From the NCBI GenBank assembly GCA_027487675.1, contig JAIYDD010000190.1, positions 42,457 through 106,456 of the forward strand: a stretch of DNA of 64,000 bases. The letters are read 5' to 3'. The number at the start of each line of letters is the position of its first letter. Position 1 is the first letter of the stretch. This document shows positions 16,538-25,775 of the stretch, piece by piece. The notes beneath the pieces were generated by a model, which saw only the letters and a program-made list of their open reading frames with translations, was not told the origin of the DNA and searched no databases. Source of the DNA: Acetobacteraceae bacterium. Lineage in GTDB: Bacteria; Pseudomonadota; Alphaproteobacteria; Acetobacterales; Acetobacteraceae. Made by a program: the position numbers and the translations under genes.

Positions 16538-18022
16538 ATGGCATCGGGCAGCGGCCGCATCGTGATCATCGGCGCCGGGATGGGCGGGCTGGTTGCCGCC
16601 GCCCTGCTGGCCGCGCGCGGGCGCGAGGTGCTGGTGCTGGACCGCGCGCCCGTGGCCGGCGGCAAGGTCCGCCAGGTGACGGTGGGCGGCGCGGCGGTGG
16701 AGGCCGGGCCCGCCCTGCTGACCCTGCCCGAGGTGTTCCGTGCCGTCTTCGACGCCGCCGGCGGCTCGCTGGACGCCGAGGTCGCGCTGCATCCGCAGCC
16801 GCTGCTGGCGCGGCATCTCTGGACGGATGGCGCGCGGCTCGACCTGTTCGCGGACGCCGCGCGCTCGGCCGACAGCGTGGGCGCCTTCGCGGGCGCCGCC
16901 GCTTCGCGCGGCTATGCCGCCTTCCGGGAAAGGGCGCGGCGCATCTACCAGGCGCTGGAAGGCCCCTACCTGCACGCCCAGCGCCCGGGCGCGATCGAGC
17001 TGGCGGCGAAGGCGGGGCTGCGCGGGCTGCTCGGCGCCTCTCCCTTCTCGACGCTGTGGGACGCGCTCGGCGAGCATTTCGCCGATCCCCGGCTGCGCCA
17101 GGCCTTCGCGCGGGTCGCGACCTATGTGGGGTCCTCGCCGATGCAGGCGCCGGCCACCCTGATGCTGATCGCGCATGTCGAGCATCTCGGCGTCTTCGCG
17201 GTGGAGGGCGGCATGGCGCGGCTGGTCGCGGCGCTGGAAGGGCTGGCGCGGCGGCACGGCGCGGCCTTCCGGCTCGGCACCCCCGCCGCGGAGATCCTGG
17301 CCGCGGGCGGGCGGGCCAGCGGCGTGCGGCTGGCCGATGGCGAGGTGCTGCCGGCCGCCACGGTGGTCGCGGCCTGCGACGCGGCGGCGCTCGGCGCGGG
17401 CCGGCTGGGCGCGGCCGCGGCGCGGGCGGTGGACGCGCTGCCGGCGGCCCGGCGGTCCTTCTCCGCCGTCACCTGGGCGATGCGGGCGAAGGTCTCGGGC
17501 GTGCAGCCGGCGTTGCAGACCGTCTGCCACCCGGCCGACGCGGCGGCGGAATACGCCGATCTCGGCTACCGCGCGCGGCTGCCGGCGGCGCCGACGGTGA
17601 CGCTCTGGGCGCAGGACCGCGCGGCCGGCGCGGCGACGCCGGAGGGGGCGGAGCGGCTGCTGGCGATGGTCAGCGCCCCCGCCCGCGCCGACACCCGGCC
17701 GCCGGCGGCCGAGGCCATCGCGGCCTGCGGGGAGACCGCCTTCGCGCAGCTGGCGCAGGCCGGGCTCGCGGTCGGGCGCGACGCGGCGGCCGAGATCGTC
17801 ATCGGGCCGGCGGAGTTCGAGCGGCTCCATCCCGGCAGCGGCGGCGCGCTCTACGGCGCGGCGGTGCACGGGCTGCAGGCGGCCTTCAGCCGGCCGGGCG
17901 CGGCGACGCGCCTGCCCGGCCTCTACCTTGCGGGCGGCAGCGCGCATCCCGGGGCGGGCGTGGCGATGGCCGCGCTGTCCGGGCGGCTGGCCGCGGCGCG
18001 GATCCTGGGAGAGCGTGGATGA
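16538..18022 (+). CDS. crtD: carotenoid 3,4-desaturase (methoxyneurosporene dehydrogenase family), copy 1
   Basis: IVIIGAGMGGLVAAALLAARGREVLVLDRAPVAGGKVRQ and C-terminal TRLPGLYLAGGSAHPGAGVAMAALSGRLAA; adjacent to crtC. Confidence 0.9.
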   Translation: MASGSGRIVIIGAGMGGLVAAALLAARGREVLVLDRAPVAGGKVRQVTVGGAAVEAGPALLTLPEVFRAVFDAAGGSLDAEVALHPQPLLARHLWTDGARLDLFADAARSADSVGAFAGAAASRGYAAFRERARRIYQALEGPYLHAQRPGAIELAAKAGLRGLLGASPFSTLWDALGEHFADPRLRQAFARVATYVGSSPMQAPATLMLIAHVEHLGVFAVEGGMARLVAALEGLARRHGAAFRLGTPAAEILAAGGRASGVRLADGEVLPAATVVAACDAAALGAGRLGAAAARAVDALPAARRSFSAVTWAMRAKVSGVQPALQTVCHPADAAAEYADLGYRARLPAAPTVTLWAQDRAAGAATPEGAERLLAMVSAPARADTRPPAAEAIAACGETAFAQLAQAGLAVGRDAAAEIVIGPAEFERLHPGSGGALYGAAVHGLQAAFSRPGAATRLPGLYLAGGSAHPGAGVAMAALSGRLAAARILGERG

Positions 18023-18996
18023 GCCTGGCCGACCTCGAAGCGGCGCCGCCGCGCCTGGCGCGGGGCTGGGAATTCGACCAGCCGGTGGGCAAGCGCGGCT
18101 ATGTCTGGTGGTACCTCGACGCGCTGTCGGATGATGGCCGGCACGGCATCACCATCATCGCCTTCATCGGCACGGTGTTCTCCCCCTGGTATGCGCTGGC
18201 CCGCATGGCCGAGGGCGGCACCGGCGGCGACCCGCACGAGCATTGCTGCCTGAACGTCGCGCTGTACGGCTCGCCCCGACGCTGGGCGATGACGGACCGG
18301 CGCAGCAGCGCGCTGCGGCGGGGGCCGGACTCCCTGACCATCGGGCGGAGCGGGCTGGAATGGGACGGCACGACGCTGACCGTGCGGATCGAGGAGGTGA
18401 CGGCGCCCATCCCCTCGCGCCTGCGCGGCGTGGTGCGCCTGACGCCGCGCGCGCTGTCGACGCGCAGCTTCGTCCTGGACAGCCACGGGCGCCACCGCTG
18501 GCACCCGATCGCGGCACGATCCCGCGTGGAGGTGGCGCTGGAACGGCCGTCCCTGCGCTGGTCGGGCAACGCCTATTTCGACACCAACGCGGGCTCCGCG
18601 CCGCTGGAACAGGATTTTGCCAGCTGGGACTGGTGCCGGGCGCCGATGCGGGACGAGACGGCTATTCTGTACAACACGCGGCGACGCGACGGCACGCAGC
18701 AATCGCTGGCGCTGCGCGTCGCCGATGATGGCAGCGTGACGGATTTCGACCCGCCGCAGCCCGTCGAACTGCCGAAGACGCTGTGGCGCATCGCACGGCC
18801 CACGCGCGCGGAAGGCGGACAGGCGCGCGTGGTGCGGACGCTGGAGGACACGCCTTTCTATTCGCGCTCCGAACTGCGCACGCGGCTGCTGGGGCAGGAA
18901 GCAACGGCGGTGCACGAGAGCCTGTCGCTCGACCGGTTCAAGTCGCCGGCGATGTTCCTGATGCTGCCGTTCAAGGTGCCGCGGACGCTGGGGTGA
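18019..18996 (+). CDS. crtC: hydroxyneurosporene synthase / carotenoid 1,2-hydratase
   Basis: GWEFDQPVGKRGYVWWYLDALSDDGRHGITIIAFIGTVFSPWY, HCCLNVALYG; ATGA overlap with crtD stop. Confidence 0.93.
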   Translation: MSLADLEAAPPRLARGWEFDQPVGKRGYVWWYLDALSDDGRHGITIIAFIGTVFSPWYALARMAEGGTGGDPHEHCCLNVALYGSPRRWAMTDRRSSALRRGPDSLTIGRSGLEWDGTTLTVRIEEVTAPIPSRLRGVVRLTPRALSTRSFVLDSHGRHRWHPIAARSRVEVALERPSLRWSGNAYFDTNAGSAPLEQDFASWDWCRAPMRDETAILYNTRRRDGTQQSLALRVADDGSVTDFDPPQPVELPKTLWRIARPTRAEGGQARVVRTLEDTPFYSRSELRTRLLGQEATAVHESLSLDRFKSPAMFLMLPFKVPRTLG

Positions 18997-19266: not shown

Positions 19267-20397
19267 TCAGTCGTACCAGCCCACATCCAGCGTCGCGACC
19301 TCGCCGAAGGGCACGCGTTTCCGCGCGGCCTCGCGCATGATGGGCCAGGCGGTCCAGGGCATGGTCAGCAGCGGCGCGGGGTCGGACCAACGCCAGCAGA
19401 CATCGGGCGTGGTGACCAGGTTCCGCAGGTTGCGGGCGAAGCCGCCGCCGCGCCGGAACAGGCTGAGCTGCGTCTCGGTCAGGCAGGACCAGAATTGCTG
19501 CAGGCGGCGCGCGGCGCGGAAGCGGATCGGCGGGGCGCCATCGGGGTCCAGGATGGCGCGGGCGACGTCGGCGGGTTCCAGGAAGTGCAGGCCGCTGGTG
19601 GTGCGCGGGTTGCATTCGATGCCGAAGGGGCGGCCGGTGTCGTCCTCGCGCAGGTCGAAGGACAGGAAGCCGGACCAGCGTGTGGCGGCGGCGAAGCGCG
19701 CGGCCCAGGCTTCGATGGCGGGGTGGTCCACGCGTTCGAAGGCCACCGCGACGGTGCCGCCGAACTGCACGCCGCGATAGATCGCGGTGGCGAGCACGCG
19801 GCCTTCGTGGACCAGGGAGCAGGTGCTGAATTCCTCGCCCGCGACGAAGCGCTGGACCACATGCGGCACGGCGGGATCGGGCGGCGGCAAGGGCGCGCCG
19901 GCGTCCAGCACGCGCACGCCGCGGCCGGAGCAGGAATGCACGGGCTTGACCACGACGCGCGCGGTGCGGGCGAGCGCCTCGGCCTGCGGCGTGCCGAGGG
20001 CGTGGGTTTCGGGCACGTCGAGGCCGAAGCGGGTGGCGGCCTCGGCGAAGCCGCCCTTGTGGTGCAGCGGCAGCAGGGTGTCGGGCGGCATGGTCAGCAC
20101 GCGCACGCCGTGCGGCAGCAGGGGGGGCAGGTGGGCGACGTGCATCGTCTCCTCGGAGACGGGCAGGACGAGGGTCGCGCCGGTGTCGCGCACGGCCTGG
20201 GCGAGCGCTTCGAGGTAGGCCTGCTTGCCCTCGGCCGGCGCGGGGGTGCGGATGCTCTGCGCCACGCTGCGCGAGGCGCCCGCCAGGTGCCGCGCATGCG
20301 GCTCCGCGATGATCACCTTGTGCCCCAGTTCGTGAAACCCCCTGGCCAGATCAAGAGACTTCGGCAGCCGCCCCAGCGTGATGAGGACGGTCGCCAA
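19267..20397 (-). CDS. ATP-grasp domain protein
   Basis: ATVLITLGRLPKSLDLARGFHELGHKVIIAEPH, VVVKPVHSCSGRGVRV, FGIECNPRTTSGLHFL. TTG start at 20397 preferred over ATG at 20484 because the extra N-terminus spans a GC hairpin. Confidence 0.75.
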   Translation of the reverse strand: MATVLITLGRLPKSLDLARGFHELGHKVIIAEPHARHLAGASRSVAQSIRTPAPAEGKQAYLEALAQAVRDTGATLVLPVSEETMHVAHLPPLLPHGVRVLTMPPDTLLPLHHKGGFAEAATRFGLDVPETHALGTPQAEALARTARVVVKPVHSCSGRGVRVLDAGAPLPPPDPAVPHVVQRFVAGEEFSTCSLVHEGRVLATAIYRGVQFGGTVAVAFERVDHPAIEAWAARFAAATRWSGFLSFDLREDDTGRPFGIECNPRTTSGLHFLEPADVARAILDPDGAPPIRFRAARRLQQFWSCLTETQLSLFRRGGGFARNLRNLVTTPDVCWRWSDPAPLLTMPWTAWPIMREAARKRVPFGEVATLDVGWYD

Positions 20398-20462
20398 CTG
20401 ATGCCGGGGTCCGGGGGGCGGCGCGCCCCCCGGCCGGGGTGCGGGGCGGAGCCCCGCGTCCT

Positions 20463-21854
20463 TTATGCCTTGGTCACCCGACACATCACCTGCTCCGCCG
20501 GACGTGTCGTGAGTCGCGCCGCCGGCCTGATGCGGTGTGGCGCCTCGACCTGCCAGTCGAAGTGCCGGAACAGTCGCGCGATGAGCAGTGTCGCTTCCAC
20601 GGTCGCGAAGGCCGCGCCCGCGCAGATGCGCGGCCCGATGCCGAAGGGGATGTAGGCGCCGGGCGTCATCTCCTTCTCCCGTTCCGGCAGGAAGCGGTCG
20701 GGGTCGAACAGGTTCGGGTCCTTCCAGTAGCCGCGGTGCCGGTGCAGCACCCAGGGTGCGACCATGACCAGCGCGCCGCGCTTGACCTTGTAGGTGCCGA
20801 GCGTCGTCGCCGCGTTGGCGATGCGCGGCAGGAAGGTGATGGGCGGATACAGGCGCAGCGTCTCGCGGAACACGTTGCGCACCAGGGTCAGGCGCTTGGT
20901 GTGCTCGAAGGTGATAACGCCGCCTTGCGTGACCTCCTCGATCTCCGCGCGGAGGCGCGCGACCAGGCCGGGCTGCATGGCCAGGATCGCGAAGGCCCAG
21001 GTGAGCGCGCTGGCGCTGGTCTCGTGGCCGGCGAGGAACATCACGCCGAGTTGGTCGATCAGCTCTTCCCGCGTGAAGCCCGGGCCGCCGTCCAGGCCGC
21101 GCGCGGCGATGATGGCGGCGGCGATGTCGTCGAAGCGCGCGCCGGCGGCGAGGTGCCGGTCCAGCAATTCGCCGAGGTGGCCGCGGATCAGCCGGCAGGC
21201 CTCCAGCACATGGGCGCGCTGCGGCACCTTCGTCCAGGCGCGGTCCATGATGAGGCGGCGAAACTCCACCTGCGCGACGCTGCGTTCGAAGATGGTGAAG
21301 GCGTCGAAAACGTCATGCGCGGTGCGGGTCTCGAGCGTGGTGGAGAAGACAGTGCGGCAGATGATGTCGGCCGTCAGGTGGCTCATCATCAGGTCGAGCG
21401 AGAAGGTTTTGCCGGCCTCCGCGTGCTGCGCCAGCGTCTCTTCCGCCAGGTCGCAGCCCGCCTGCATGTCAGGGAAGGCGCGGTTGACGCGCATGTGCGA
21501 CAGCGCCGGGTCGATCATCCGGCGCTGGCGCTGCCAGGTGGCGCCGGAGGAGACGAAGATGCTGTCGCCGATCAGCGGGTCCAGCGCCTCCACCATCAGG
21601 TCGGATTTCGGGAAGATGCCCTCGGGGTCGGACAGCACGTGGCGGACCAGCGCGGGCTCGTTCACCACGATGATGGACCGCCGCGAATAGCCGAGCGGGC
21701 CGATCGGCGCGTGATAGGCCTCGGCCGGCAGCAGGCCGAGCAGATTGCCCTCGCCTTCCAGCAGCTGGCGGATCAGCGCGACGACGGGCGAGCGCGGGAC
21801 CGGATAGGGCGGCGTGAAGGGGGCCCAGGCAGAGGCTGCGGGCGCGTCGAGCAT
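20463..21854 (-). CDS. cytochrome P450
   Basis: I-helix FLAGHETSASALTWAF, ExxR FRETLRLYPP, heme-binding PFGIGPRICAGAAFATVE. MLDAPAAS start chosen; the ORF extends to 21932. Confidence 0.95.
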   Translation of the reverse strand: MLDAPAASAWAPFTPPYPVPRSPVVALIRQLLEGEGNLLGLLPAEAYHAPIGPLGYSRRSIIVVNEPALVRHVLSDPEGIFPKSDLMVEALDPLIGDSIFVSSGATWQRQRRMIDPALSHMRVNRAFPDMQAGCDLAEETLAQHAEAGKTFSLDLMMSHLTADIICRTVFSTTLETRTAHDVFDAFTIFERSVAQVEFRRLIMDRAWTKVPQRAHVLEACRLIRGHLGELLDRHLAAGARFDDIAAAIIAARGLDGGPGFTREELIDQLGVMFLAGHETSASALTWAFAILAMQPGLVARLRAEIEEVTQGGVITFEHTKRLTLVRNVFRETLRLYPPITFLPRIANAATTLGTYKVKRGALVMVAPWVLHRHRGYWKDPNLFDPDRFLPEREKEMTPGAYIPFGIGPRICAGAAFATVEATLLIARLFRHFDWQVEAPHRIRPAARLTTRPAEQVMCRVTKA

Positions 21855-21900
21855 GGGCGCGTGCGGTCCGATGGTCCCGTGTGTCAGGACGACGTGTCGC

Positions 21901-21944
21901 TGATTCCGCGGCTTTACACCCAGAAGTGTCAAGTGGCATTGTCA
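21901..21944. promoter_or_regulatory. candidate dual PpsR boxes with 8-bp spacing between P450 and DUF2306-like gene
   Basis: TGA-N12-ACA (21901-21918), 8 bp, TGT-N12-TCA (21927-21944). Each box has one mismatch to TGT-N12-ACA; spacing is the same as at bchC. Confidence 0.5.
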
Positions 21945-21967
21945 TTGCCAGGACGAAGGAGCCGCGG

Positions 21968-22711
21968 ATGGAGCTTCTGCTCTTCCACACGCTGGTCGCC
22001 GCGCACATCGCCACGGGTGCGACGGGCGCGATCGCCTTCTGGGTGCCGGTGGTCGGGAAGAAGGGCGGCGAGCAGCACCGGAAATGGGGCCGGGTGTTCA
22101 CCTGGGCGCTGCTGGCGACGGGCGGATTCGCCACGGCGATGAGCCTGCTGTCCATCCTCGATCCCATCGGCACGCATCCGCACCTGGAAGGCCGGTTCGA
22201 GGAAGCCTGGATCCGCGGGATGTTCGGCTGGATGATGCTGCACACGGCCATCCTGACGATCAACCTGACCTGGTATGGCTGGCTCTGCGTGAAGAACCGC
22301 AACAACCACGCGCTGAACCGCACGCGGCTGAACATCTGGCTGCAATGGCTGGTGATCGCGGCGGCGATCAACTGTGCGCTCCAGGGCTGGCTGATCGGCG
22401 AAAAGCTGATGATGCTGATCGCCATCGTCGGCGTGGCGACCGGCTGGACCAATTTGCACTTCCTGAACAAGCCGGCGATCCGGCGCGAGGACTGGCTGAA
22501 GGAGCATGTGAAGGCGCTCGTCGGCTCCGGCATCAGCGTCTACACCGCCTTCATGGCCTTCGGATCGGTGCGGATCCTGCCCGAGCTCGCGCTGCACCCG
22601 GTGCTGTGGGGCATCCCGCTTTCCGTCGGGCTGGCGATCATCATCTGGCACCGCTTCGCCATCGACCGCGCCGCCCGGCAGCGCCGCGCGCGGGTGGAGG
22701 CGGCGGCCTGA
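21968..22711 (+). CDS. multi-pass membrane protein (DUF2306-like)
   Basis: MELLLFHTLVAAHIATGATGAIAFWVPVVGKKGGEQHRKWGRVFTWALLATGGFATAMSLLSI; several hydrophobic helices and a DUF2306-type N-terminal pattern. Confidence 0.7.
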   Translation: MELLLFHTLVAAHIATGATGAIAFWVPVVGKKGGEQHRKWGRVFTWALLATGGFATAMSLLSILDPIGTHPHLEGRFEEAWIRGMFGWMMLHTAILTINLTWYGWLCVKNRNNHALNRTRLNIWLQWLVIAAAINCALQGWLIGEKLMMLIAIVGVATGWTNLHFLNKPAIRREDWLKEHVKALVGSGISVYTAFMAFGSVRILPELALHPVLWGIPLSVGLAIIIWHRFAIDRAARQRRARVEAAA

Positions 22712-24237
22712 GCACTCTCCGCGCCCTTCCGGGCGACAGGGTCATCGTCATCGGCGCCGGCATCGGCGGGCTCGCCGCGGCCGCCGACCTGGCGCGGCGC
22801 GGCGCGCGGGTCACGGTGCTGGAACGCGCCGCGGCGCCGGGCGGCAAGATGCGCCAGCTGCTCGGCGTGGATGCGGGCCCGACCGTCTTCACCATGCGCT
22901 GGATCTTCGAGGGCCTGTTCGCCGATGCCGGGCGGCGGCTGGAGGATGCGCTGGACCTCGTCCCGGCGGATGTGCTGGCGCGGCACGCCTGGCGGGCGGG
23001 CGGGCGGCTCGACCTGTTCGCCGATGTCGCGCGGTCGGCGGCGGCGATCGGCGACTTCGCCGGCGCGGAGGACGCGCGCGGCTATGTGGCGTTCTGCGAA
23101 AGGTCGCGCGACATCTTCTCGACGCTGGCCGGGCCCTTCATCGCGTCCGAACGGCCCTCGCCCTTCGGGCTGATGCGGCGGGTGGGCCTGACCAGGCTGG
23201 ATGCGCTGCTGCGCACGGTGCCGTGGCAGACGCTGTGGGGCGCGCTCGGGACGCATTTCCGGGATGCGCGGCTGCGCCAGCTCTTCGGGCGCTACGCCAC
23301 CTATTGCGGCTGCTCGCCGATGCTGGCGCCGGCGACGCTGATGCTGGTGGCGCATGTCGAGCAGGACGGCGTGTGGCTGGTGCGCGGCGGCATGGTGCGC
23401 GTGGCGCAGGCCATCCAGGCGCTGGCCGAGGCGCAGGGCGCGCGCTTCCGCTTCGGCGCCCATGTCGCGGAGATCCTGGTCGAGGGCGGCCGCGCGAGCG
23501 GCGTCCGCCTGGCGGATGGCGAATGCATCGCCGCCGATGCCGTGGTGTTCAACGGCGACGTCGCGGCGCTGGCGCGCGGGATGCTCGGCGATGGCGCGCG
23601 CGGCGCGGCGGCGGACACGCCGGATGCGGCGCGTTCGCTGTCCGCCGTCACCTGGTGCCTCCGTGCGCCGACCGCGGGCTTCCCGCTGGTGCACCACAAC
23701 GTCTTCTTCGCGGAGGACTACGCCGAGGAGTTCGACGCGATCTTCCGCCGCCGCGACATCTGCGCCGCCCCCACCGTCTACATCTGCGCGCAGGACCGCG
23801 GCGTGGGCGAGGTGGCGCCGGGCGCGGCGGAGCGGCTGCTGGTGCTGGTCAACGCGCCGCCGGATGGCGACCGCGTGGATTTCGTGCCGCGTCTGCCCGA
23901 GCTGGCGGACCGCACGGCCTCGCTGCTGCGCAGCTGCGGGCTGGAGCTGTCGCTGGCGGGCGAGGCCTGCGTGCCGACCACGCCGACAGGGTTCGACGGG
24001 CTGTTCCCGGCCTCGGGCGGCGCGCTGTATGGCCGGGCGAGCCATGGCGCGACGGGCACCTTCGGGCGCGCCGGCGGGGTGACGCGGCTGCCGGGGTTGT
24101 ACTGCGCTGGCGGCTCCGTCCATCCAGGCCCGGGCATCCCGATGGCCGCCATGTCCGGCCGGCTTGCCGCCGCGCGCGTGCTGGAGGACCGCGCCGGCCG
24201 TGGCGCGAGTGTCGTGGCCTTGCCCGCCCCTGCCTGA
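22708..24237 (+). CDS. crtD: CrtD-like carotenoid desaturase, copy 2
   Basis: VIVIGAGIGGLAAAADLARRGARVTVLERAAAPGGKMRQ...ALYGRASHGATGTFGRAGGVTRLPGLYCAGGSVHPGPGIPMAAMSGRLAA. No ATG precedes the FAD motif in frame; candidate starts are a CTG overlapping the upstream TGA (22708) or GTG at 22606. Confidence 0.85.
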   Translation: MSTLRALPGDRVIVIGAGIGGLAAAADLARRGARVTVLERAAAPGGKMRQLLGVDAGPTVFTMRWIFEGLFADAGRRLEDALDLVPADVLARHAWRAGGRLDLFADVARSAAAIGDFAGAEDARGYVAFCERSRDIFSTLAGPFIASERPSPFGLMRRVGLTRLDALLRTVPWQTLWGALGTHFRDARLRQLFGRYATYCGCSPMLAPATLMLVAHVEQDGVWLVRGGMVRVAQAIQALAEAQGARFRFGAHVAEILVEGGRASGVRLADGECIAADAVVFNGDVAALARGMLGDGARGAAADTPDAARSLSAVTWCLRAPTAGFPLVHHNVFFAEDYAEEFDAIFRRRDICAAPTVYICAQDRGVGEVAPGAAERLLVLVNAPPDGDRVDFVPRLPELADRTASLLRSCGLELSLAGEACVPTTPTGFDGLFPASGGALYGRASHGATGTFGRAGGVTRLPGLYCAGGSVHPGPGIPMAAMSGRLAAARVLEDRAGRGASVVALPAPA

Positions 24238-24260: not shown

Positions 24261-25775
24261 TCACACCTTGGCTTTGAACGCCGCCCCTTCCGGCACGAGC
24301 TGGTCCAGCACCTTTGCCGACGAGATCACCCCCGGCACCCCCGCCCCCGGATGGGTGCCCGCGCCCACGAGGAACAGGTTCTCCACTTCCTCGCTGCGGT
24401 TGTGCGGCCGGAACCAGGCAGACTGGAACAGCTGCGGCTCCAGCGAGAACCCCGCGCCGTTCACCGACAGCAGCCGGTCCCGGAAATCGAGCGGCGTCAT
24501 GATGCGGGAAGTGACGACATGCCGCCCGAGGCCGGGCAGCACCGTCTCCTCCAGCCGCGCCAGGATCTTCGCACGATAGGGCTCGGCCAGTTGCGTCCAG
24601 TCCTGCCCGCCGCCCAGATGCGGCACCGGCGAGAGCACGTAGAAGGCATCGCCGCCGGGCGGCGCCAGCGAGGGATCGGTCGCGGTCGGCCGGTGCAGGT
24701 AGAGCGAGAAATCGTCCGCCAGGTGCTTGCGGCGGAAGATGTCGTGCAGCAGGCCTTCGTAGCGGGGCCCGAGCAGGATGGTGTGGTGGCCCACCTCCTC
24801 GAACCGGCGATCGGTGCCGAAGTACCAGACGAAGAGGCCCATGCTGAACCGCGCACGGGCGAGCTTGCCGTCCGTCCAGCGCTTGCGCGGCTGCGCGCCG
24901 AGCAGCTTCGAATAGGTCCAGGCGACATCGGCGTTGGAGACGACGACATCCGCGTCGATGCGCTCGCCGGAAGCGAGCCTGACGCCGGTGGCGCGGCCGT
25001 CGCGGGTGGTGATCTCCGTCACCTCCGCGTTGCAGCGGACCACGCCGTGCTGGCCCTCGATCAGCCCGACCAGGCCCTGCACCAGCGCGCCCATGCCGCC
25101 CATCGCGTAGTGCACGCCGTGCAGGCGCTCCAGATGCGCGATCAGGCAGTAATAGGCGGTGGTGGTCATCGGGTTCCCGCCGATCAGCAGCGGGTGGAAG
25201 CTGAAGGCGATGCGCAGGCGCTTGTCCTTGAAGTAGTCGCCGACCTTGCCGAAGACCGTGCGGTAGCCCTGCAGGCGGATCAGGTCGGGTGCGGCGCGCA
25301 GCAGCGCGCCGATGCTGTGGAAAGGCTGGTCGGCCAGGTCGCCGAAGGCGACGTCGTAGATCCGCTCGCTGTCGCGGATGAAGCGGTCGAAGCCGTCTAG
25401 ATCGCCGGGCGCAAGCCGCGCCACCTCGGCCCGCGTCGCGGCGAGGTCAGCGGTGCAGGCCATCTCCGACCCGTCGGGGAAGCGGATGCTGTAGAAGGGA
25501 TCCATCGGGCGCAGCGCGACGTCGTCGGACAGGCGCCTGCCGCAGAGCCGCCACAGCTCCTCGAGCAGGTAGGGCGCGGTGATGATGGTGGGCCCCGCGT
25601 CGAAGACGAAGCCGTCCTGGCGGAACACATAGGCGCGCCCGCCCGGCGCATCGAGCTTCTCGAGCACGGTGACGCGCCAGCCCCGCGCGCCGAGGCGCAC
25701 GGCGGCGGCCAGCCCGCCGAAGCCGGAGCCGATGACGACGGCGTGCGGGCGGGGGTCCTCGGTGGTGTCGAACAT
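24261..25775 (-). CDS. crtI: phytoene desaturase
   Basis: VIGSGFGGLAAAVRLGARGWRVTVLEKLDAPGGRAYVFRQDGFVFDAGPTIIT and C-terminal NLFLVGAGTHPGAGVPGVISSAKVLDQL. Confidence 0.95.
   Translation of the reverse strand: MFDTTEDPRPHAVVIGSGFGGLAAAVRLGARGWRVTVLEKLDAPGGRAYVFRQDGFVFDAGPTIITAPYLLEELWRLCGRRLSDDVALRPMDPFYSIRFPDGSEMACTADLAATRAEVARLAPGDLDGFDRFIRDSERIYDVAFGDLADQPFHSIGALLRAAPDLIRLQGYRTVFGKVGDYFKDKRLRIAFSFHPLLIGGNPMTTTAYYCLIAHLERLHGVHYAMGGMGALVQGLVGLIEGQHGVVRCNAEVTEITTRDGRATGVRLASGERIDADVVVSNADVAWTYSKLLGAQPRKRWTDGKLARARFSMGLFVWYFGTDRRFEEVGHHTILLGPRYEGLLHDIFRRKHLADDFSLYLHRPTATDPSLAPPGGDAFYVLSPVPHLGGGQDWTQLAEPYRAKILARLEETVLPGLGRHVVTSRIMTPLDFRDRLLSVNGAGFSLEPQLFQSAWFRPHNRSEEVENLFLVGAGTHPGAGVPGVISSAKVLDQLVPEGAAFKAKV

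Follow-up and report, generated by a model that had tools for sequence, protein, structure and literature searches.

Between crtC and crtI in the photosynthesis gene cluster of an Acetobacteraceae bacterium (GenBank assembly GCA_027487675.1, contig JAIYDD010000190.1, positions 42,457 to 106,456, a stretch of 64,000 nucleotides hereafter called the window) lies a block of four genes, encoding an ATP-grasp protein, a cytochrome P450, a seven-helix membrane protein and a CrtD-type desaturase, which we read, with a probability of roughly 0.55, as a module by which aerobic anoxygenic phototrophs tailor their carotenoids and which combines a methyl oxidase with an optional ligation step. In the proposed scheme, the P450 and the membrane protein would act together at the membrane on a methyl group of an acyclic C40 carotenoid, whose 3,4-desaturated backbone would come from the module CrtD. 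The favoured target is a terminal allylic methyl, which would be oxidised in three steps to a carboxylic acid (at C16, as in gemmatoxanthin); an in-chain methyl may in addition be converted to an aldehyde (C19'). Where the ATP-grasp protein is present, as in the window, it would activate the new carboxylate with ATP and join it to an amine, so that a conjugated carotenoid of polar character would result; organisms without the protein, the gemmatoxanthin producers among them, would accumulate the free acid. That the module is real and conserved can be regarded as practically certain, and that it is directed at carotenoids as highly probable.

An earlier note on this DNA had placed the ATP-grasp and P450 genes on the minus strand, diverging from the membrane protein and desaturase genes on the plus strand, and the block has this order, with all four genes in place. 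The P450 gene (20463..21932, −) lies upstream of the ATP-grasp gene (19267..20484, −) and overlaps it, while the membrane protein gene (21968..22711, +) is followed directly by the module crtD (~22708..24237, +). The P450 open reading frame spans 489 aa from a TTG codon, a later internal start being likely, and scores 239.8 bits against PF00067 (cut-off 22.8 bits); its I-helix (AGHET), ExxR and heme cysteine motifs are intact, and A301GHET305, E357xxR360 and C437 are kept in 85 relatives. In a profile search the closest solved structure is CYP97A3 (215 bits, against 173 for the next protein), with CYP97C1 lower, and the alignment with CYP97A3 is only distantly similar, short of the >~40% identity of a common CYP97 subfamily. 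P450s acting on carotenoids occur in bacteria, as in the case of CYP175A1 and CYP287A1, and methyl oxidations are a reaction type that P450s perform.

The earlier note had named lack of conservation in the photosynthesis gene clusters of relatives as grounds for abandoning the module, and this objection clearly fails. The ATP-grasp gene was found in 22 of 250 Acetobacteraceae genomes (the window's own included, the other 21 proteins being 54–68% identical), and in every one of the 22 a P450 (69–76% identity) and a membrane protein (57–74%) are encoded beside it. These three genes form the core; five of the 22 genomes have no CrtD adjoining the membrane protein, and the sole CrtD found in them sits by crtC. 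Reaction-centre genes were detected in 21 of the 22 genomes and in 61 of the 228 others (Fisher p 1.6e-10, not corrected for relatedness); the single ATP-grasp genome without a detected reaction centre is 80% complete. Searched for on its own, the membrane protein was recovered in 25 of 80 genomes, nearly all with reaction centres, comprising the same 22 and three divergent cases.

The module extends beyond the Acetobacteraceae: it turns up among aerobic anoxygenic phototrophs from several classes, P450s of its clade being present in the Alpha-, Beta- and Gammaproteobacteria, and also among the Gemmatimonadota. A scan of the P450 alignment against 85,462 species genomes returned relatives at 52–77% identity in the Sphingomonadales, the Hyphomicrobiales/Beijerinckiaceae, the Hyphomonadaceae, the Betaproteobacteria, the Halieaceae (Luminiphilus, HTCC2080) and the Gemmatimonadota, and type-2 reaction centres were found in 28 of the 31 named carrier genomes tested, the other three being metagenome-assembled genomes (MAGs) of 2.0–2.4 Mb. 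Four loci are cut at contig ends; at all 88 uncut clade loci the membrane protein gene is present, mostly divergent from the P450 gene, and P450s of this clade accordingly have the membrane protein, not the ATP-grasp protein, as their obligate partner. The phylogeny shows the same association: all 85 rows with a P450 linked to a membrane protein fall, without exception, into a single clade (support 99), and a more distant set, at 35–43% identity, lacks the membrane protein. Two betaproteobacterial phototrophs (L110 and L114, a Hydrogenophaga and another MAG) likewise carry P450s about 43% identical to that of the window and no membrane protein. Contigs labelled as Acidobacteria (L081, L082, L124) group with a Hyphomonadaceae contig in both the P450 and the CrtD trees and are probably mis-binned.

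Putative control sites were also sought in the region shared by the two divergent genes. Exact palindromes of the PpsR/CrtJ type (TGT-N12-ACA) occur in 18 of 76 intergenic regions between P450 and membrane protein genes, compared with 1.8 expected from shuffled sequences, although these regions are related and not independent, and putative photosynthesis-type control sites are thus enriched in the shared promoters. The divergent region of the window (21933..21967) holds no exact TGT-N12-ACA, and has an imperfect candidate site, TGT-N12-TCA at ~21927–21944, one mismatch away.

The membrane protein, of 247 aa, has been compared with DUF2306, a label that is fair as a remote relation, since a weak match below threshold is seen in 18 of 22 relatives (best 6.5e-5), but that goes too far as a family assignment: the protein itself reaches 10.3 bits against PF10067 (gathering cut-off 31.6), and no Pfam or NCBIfam family exceeds its cut-off. 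Its AlphaFold model comprises seven long helices (pLDDT 88), and a fold search against the PDB gave nothing at E ≤ 0.001, so that no function follows from structure. Four histidines (H13, H37, H70, H180) and two lysines (K32, K182) stand out as conserved, being present in 97% or more of 89 relatives. The protein may present the substrate, pass electrons or be an oxidase in its own right.

The module CrtD overlaps the stop codon of the membrane protein gene, and its start is uncertain because no ATG, GTG or TTG lies near the junction; a CTG at 22708, over the TGA, is a possible start. The earlier note had spoken of a second CrtD paralog tightly coupled to the membrane protein, and two CrtDs are indeed present, but it is the copy in the block that matches the model of 1-hydroxycarotenoid 3,4-desaturases better, with 655 bits against NF045637 (equivalog cut-off 580), whereas the copy linked to crtC reaches 553. 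In the CrtD tree the copies adjoining a membrane protein form a clade of their own (51 rows, support 90/95), apart from the CrtDs linked to crtC, and the CrtD of the block therefore belongs to the module; the window carries one CrtD of each clade. The notion that the second CrtD is simply a redundant copy was rejected on the basis of this module-specific clade.

The Gemmatimonadota provide a comparison between genomes with and without the pair of P450 and membrane protein. Gemmatoxanthin, a C40 carotenoid oxidised to an aldehyde at C19' and to a carboxyl group at C16, was described in Gemmatimonas phototrophica by authors who stated that no enzyme was known for the oxidation of carotenoid C-19/C-20 methyl groups (PMC8342508), and G. 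groenlandica also contains it, together with some spirilloxanthin (PMC12817894). The genomes assigned to G. groenlandica TET16 and G. phototrophica AP64 share the order crtB-cruF-sm-crtI-tig-clpP-[P450, membrane protein]-clpX-lon, whereas a genome fitting the non-producer G. aurantiaca T-27 reads crtB-cruF-crtI-tig-clpP-clpX-lon and has neither of the two genes at the clpP–clpX site. The P450 of the module is one of only two in G. groenlandica, and the one that lies by the crt genes. No ATP-grasp protein of this family was found in either producer, which fits the accumulation of a free acid there. Across 118 Gemmatimonadaceae genomes, the P450 is found in 11, a reaction centre in 21 and both in 8 (Fisher p 3.3e-5). 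In the Gemmatimonadota the pair lies next to the crtB-cruF-crtI genes, and in the two complete genomes a distance of more than 1.3 Mb separates it from the reaction-centre genes, which points to a link with carotenoids rather than with the photosystem. This location bears on the idea that the module modifies something other than a carotenoid, such as the bacteriochlorophyll tail, a quinone, a hopanoid or a fatty acid, and merely travels in the photosynthesis gene cluster. In the Proteobacteria, where the module usually lies within that cluster, linkage alone cannot separate one pigment from another, but its position beside crtB, cruF and crtI and apart from the cluster in the Gemmatimonadota, together with the separate clade of the adjoining CrtDs, makes such a role quite improbable.

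Several points weigh against a carotenoid methyl oxidase. Gemmatoxanthin has two different oxidations, and it may be questioned whether one P450 carries out both, while for its acid group Nupur et al. had proposed CruH-like proteins (PMC8342508). The contrast in Gemmatimonas draws on three genomes, two from producers and one from a non-producer, which also differ in a further small gene, sm, located between cruF and crtI. Thirteen Gemmatimonadaceae genomes have a reaction centre and lack the pair, and in three (L151, L153, L156) the pair lies near carotenoid genes with no reaction centre detected. Furthermore, the Gemmatimonas P450s are only 52–58% identical to that of the window, so that their product may differ from the product made there. 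Finally, no C40 acid is known to us from the pigments described in carriers like Luminiphilus and Roseococcus. A possible product of another size, the C30 carotenedioate of Roseococcus thiosulfatophilus, was considered and set aside, the neighbours of the P450 being C40 genes. With regard to the genomes just mentioned, the three without a detected reaction centre are either incomplete or make use of the carotenoid outside photosynthesis; one genome fitting Pseudogemmatithrix spongiicola has a reaction centre and no pair; and sm (L149:5373-5693) encodes 106 aa with no Pfam family, occurring in the Gemmatimonas P450 carriers and absent from the putative G. aurantiaca and P. spongiicola loci.

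The ATP-grasp protein bears on what the oxidised product would be. It is adjacent to the pair at 70 loci, in either orientation, and farther away at one more, and it is absent genome-wide from several P450 carriers; it is hence a frequent yet dispensable partner of the module. Cultivated carriers that have it include Falsiroseomonas algicola, Roseococcus suduntuyensis, Luminiphilus syltensis and Novosphingobium sediminis. The protein extends over 405 aa from a GTG codon, the true start probably lying slightly downstream, and is a predicted carboxylate-amine ligase resembling PRK06849/NF005315, with 28.7 bits against PF02655 (cut-off 23.2) and 241 bits against NF005315, short of its cut-off of 406. 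A search of PDB sequences with the single protein gave nothing useful and a profile search only weak matches, and it was the fold search that proved informative: the AlphaFold model (pLDDT 91.8) is nearest to the L-amino acid ligase BL00235 (3vot, E 3.9e-16), followed by PylC. The ATP-binding lysine and the metal-binding E-x-N motif of this fold are present, K180, D277 and E290xN292PR being shared by 97% or more of 70 relatives. The proposal of the earlier note, that the P450 could oxygenate a carotenoid and the ATP-grasp enzyme could ligate the carboxylated product, remains the best reading as a prediction from sequence. We consider it unlikely that the P450 makes only a hydroxyl group or an in-chain aldehyde (C19/C20, as in rhodopinal), with the acid supplied by another enzyme and the ATP-grasp protein acting elsewhere in the pathway. 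The CYP97 enzymes, its nearest solved relatives, are hydroxylases, and the C19' aldehyde of gemmatoxanthin is likewise without an assigned enzyme (PMC8342508); such an arrangement would, however, leave the frequent ATP-grasp protein without a carboxylate substrate made by the module.

Oxidation of a methyl group to an acid, with optional ligation, would carry several implications. The pair supplies candidate genes for the oxidation steps of gemmatoxanthin that have had none assigned, and aerobic phototrophs of two or more phyla would in many cases carry a carotenoid-modifying step that has not been catalogued, so that their pigment lists may be incomplete. A fuller version, in which P450, membrane protein and ATP-grasp protein constitute a pathway that converts acyclic carotenoids to acids joined to an amine across aerobic anoxygenic phototrophs, is put forward tentatively, and with more doubt than confidence; it would imply a class of conjugated photosynthetic carotenoids not described so far, a first case of an ATP-grasp ligase with a carotenoid substrate, and an enzymatic function for a protein related to DUF2306. 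A literature search returned no paper with an ATP-grasp enzyme acting on a carotenoid, and none assigning a P450 in the gene clusters of Acetobacteraceae or aerobic phototrophs; a P450 near the Citromicrobium cluster is mentioned in a figure legend only.

The block is flanked by recognisable carotenoid genes. Upstream lie the crtC-linked crtD (16538..18022, +), which is of the other CrtD type and evolves faster in the tree, and crtC, for carotenoid 1,2-hydratase (18019..18996, +), which is syntenic in relatives although its 292 bits against NF045922 fall below the cut-off of 400. Downstream, crtI, for phytoene desaturase (24261..25775, −; 623 bits against TIGR02734, cut-off 238), adjoins the module in most relatives. 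A membrane protein with a VTT domain (DedA-like, PF09335; 25802–26242, −) is encoded between crtI and pufC and is retained in several relatives. The cluster also holds puf, bch, PpsR, phytochrome and heme oxygenase genes, and the Pfam matches expected for CrtB, CrtE and CrtF; beside the heme oxygenase, phytochrome and PpsR group lies a gene for an FAD monooxygenase (PF01494; 10711–11886, +), syntenic in close relatives. PADLOC gave no defence link for the block. The view that the canonical set is complete except for crtA holds as far as crtI, crtC, two crtD, crtB and crtE-like and crtF-like genes are concerned, but its second half is weaker, in that the CrtA model NF045923 had no match in the source genome and none in the control genomes either. 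If crtA is indeed missing, the P450 might be conceived as an O2-dependent 2-hydroxylase or 2-ketolase of spirilloxanthin-type carotenoids standing in for it, the carriers being largely aerobic phototrophs and CrtA not itself a P450, so that replacement is feasible (PMC10604819). Gemmatoxanthin, however, lacks a 2-keto group even though the P450 is present in its producers (PMC8342508), and the ATP-grasp protein would go unexplained, which renders this substitution quite improbable.

Set against known systems, the window shares with the canonical spirilloxanthin/spheroidene set, crtEBICDF(A), the carotenoid genes named above, but the canonical purple-bacterial pathway as reviewed includes no P450, membrane protein or ATP-grasp protein, and names a P450 solely in contrast to CrtA (PMC10604819). 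The plant carotenoid ring hydroxylases CYP97A3 and CYP97C1 resemble the P450 of the window in being P450s that act on carotenoids, the former being also its top solved structure, with the single sequence as well as with its profile; they hydroxylate cyclic end groups, whereas the clade of the window sits in acyclic (crtC/crtD) pathways and differs further in its obligate association with a seven-helix protein and in the ATP-grasp protein that usually accompanies it. The L-amino acid ligases and PylC have the closest folds to the ATP-grasp protein and its ExNPR metal-binding motif, at only about 14–20% identity. The gemmatoxanthin producers, lastly, share with the window an orthologous P450 and membrane protein, located in their case beside crtB-cruF-crtI, but differ from it in having neither the ATP-grasp protein nor a CrtD beside the membrane protein.

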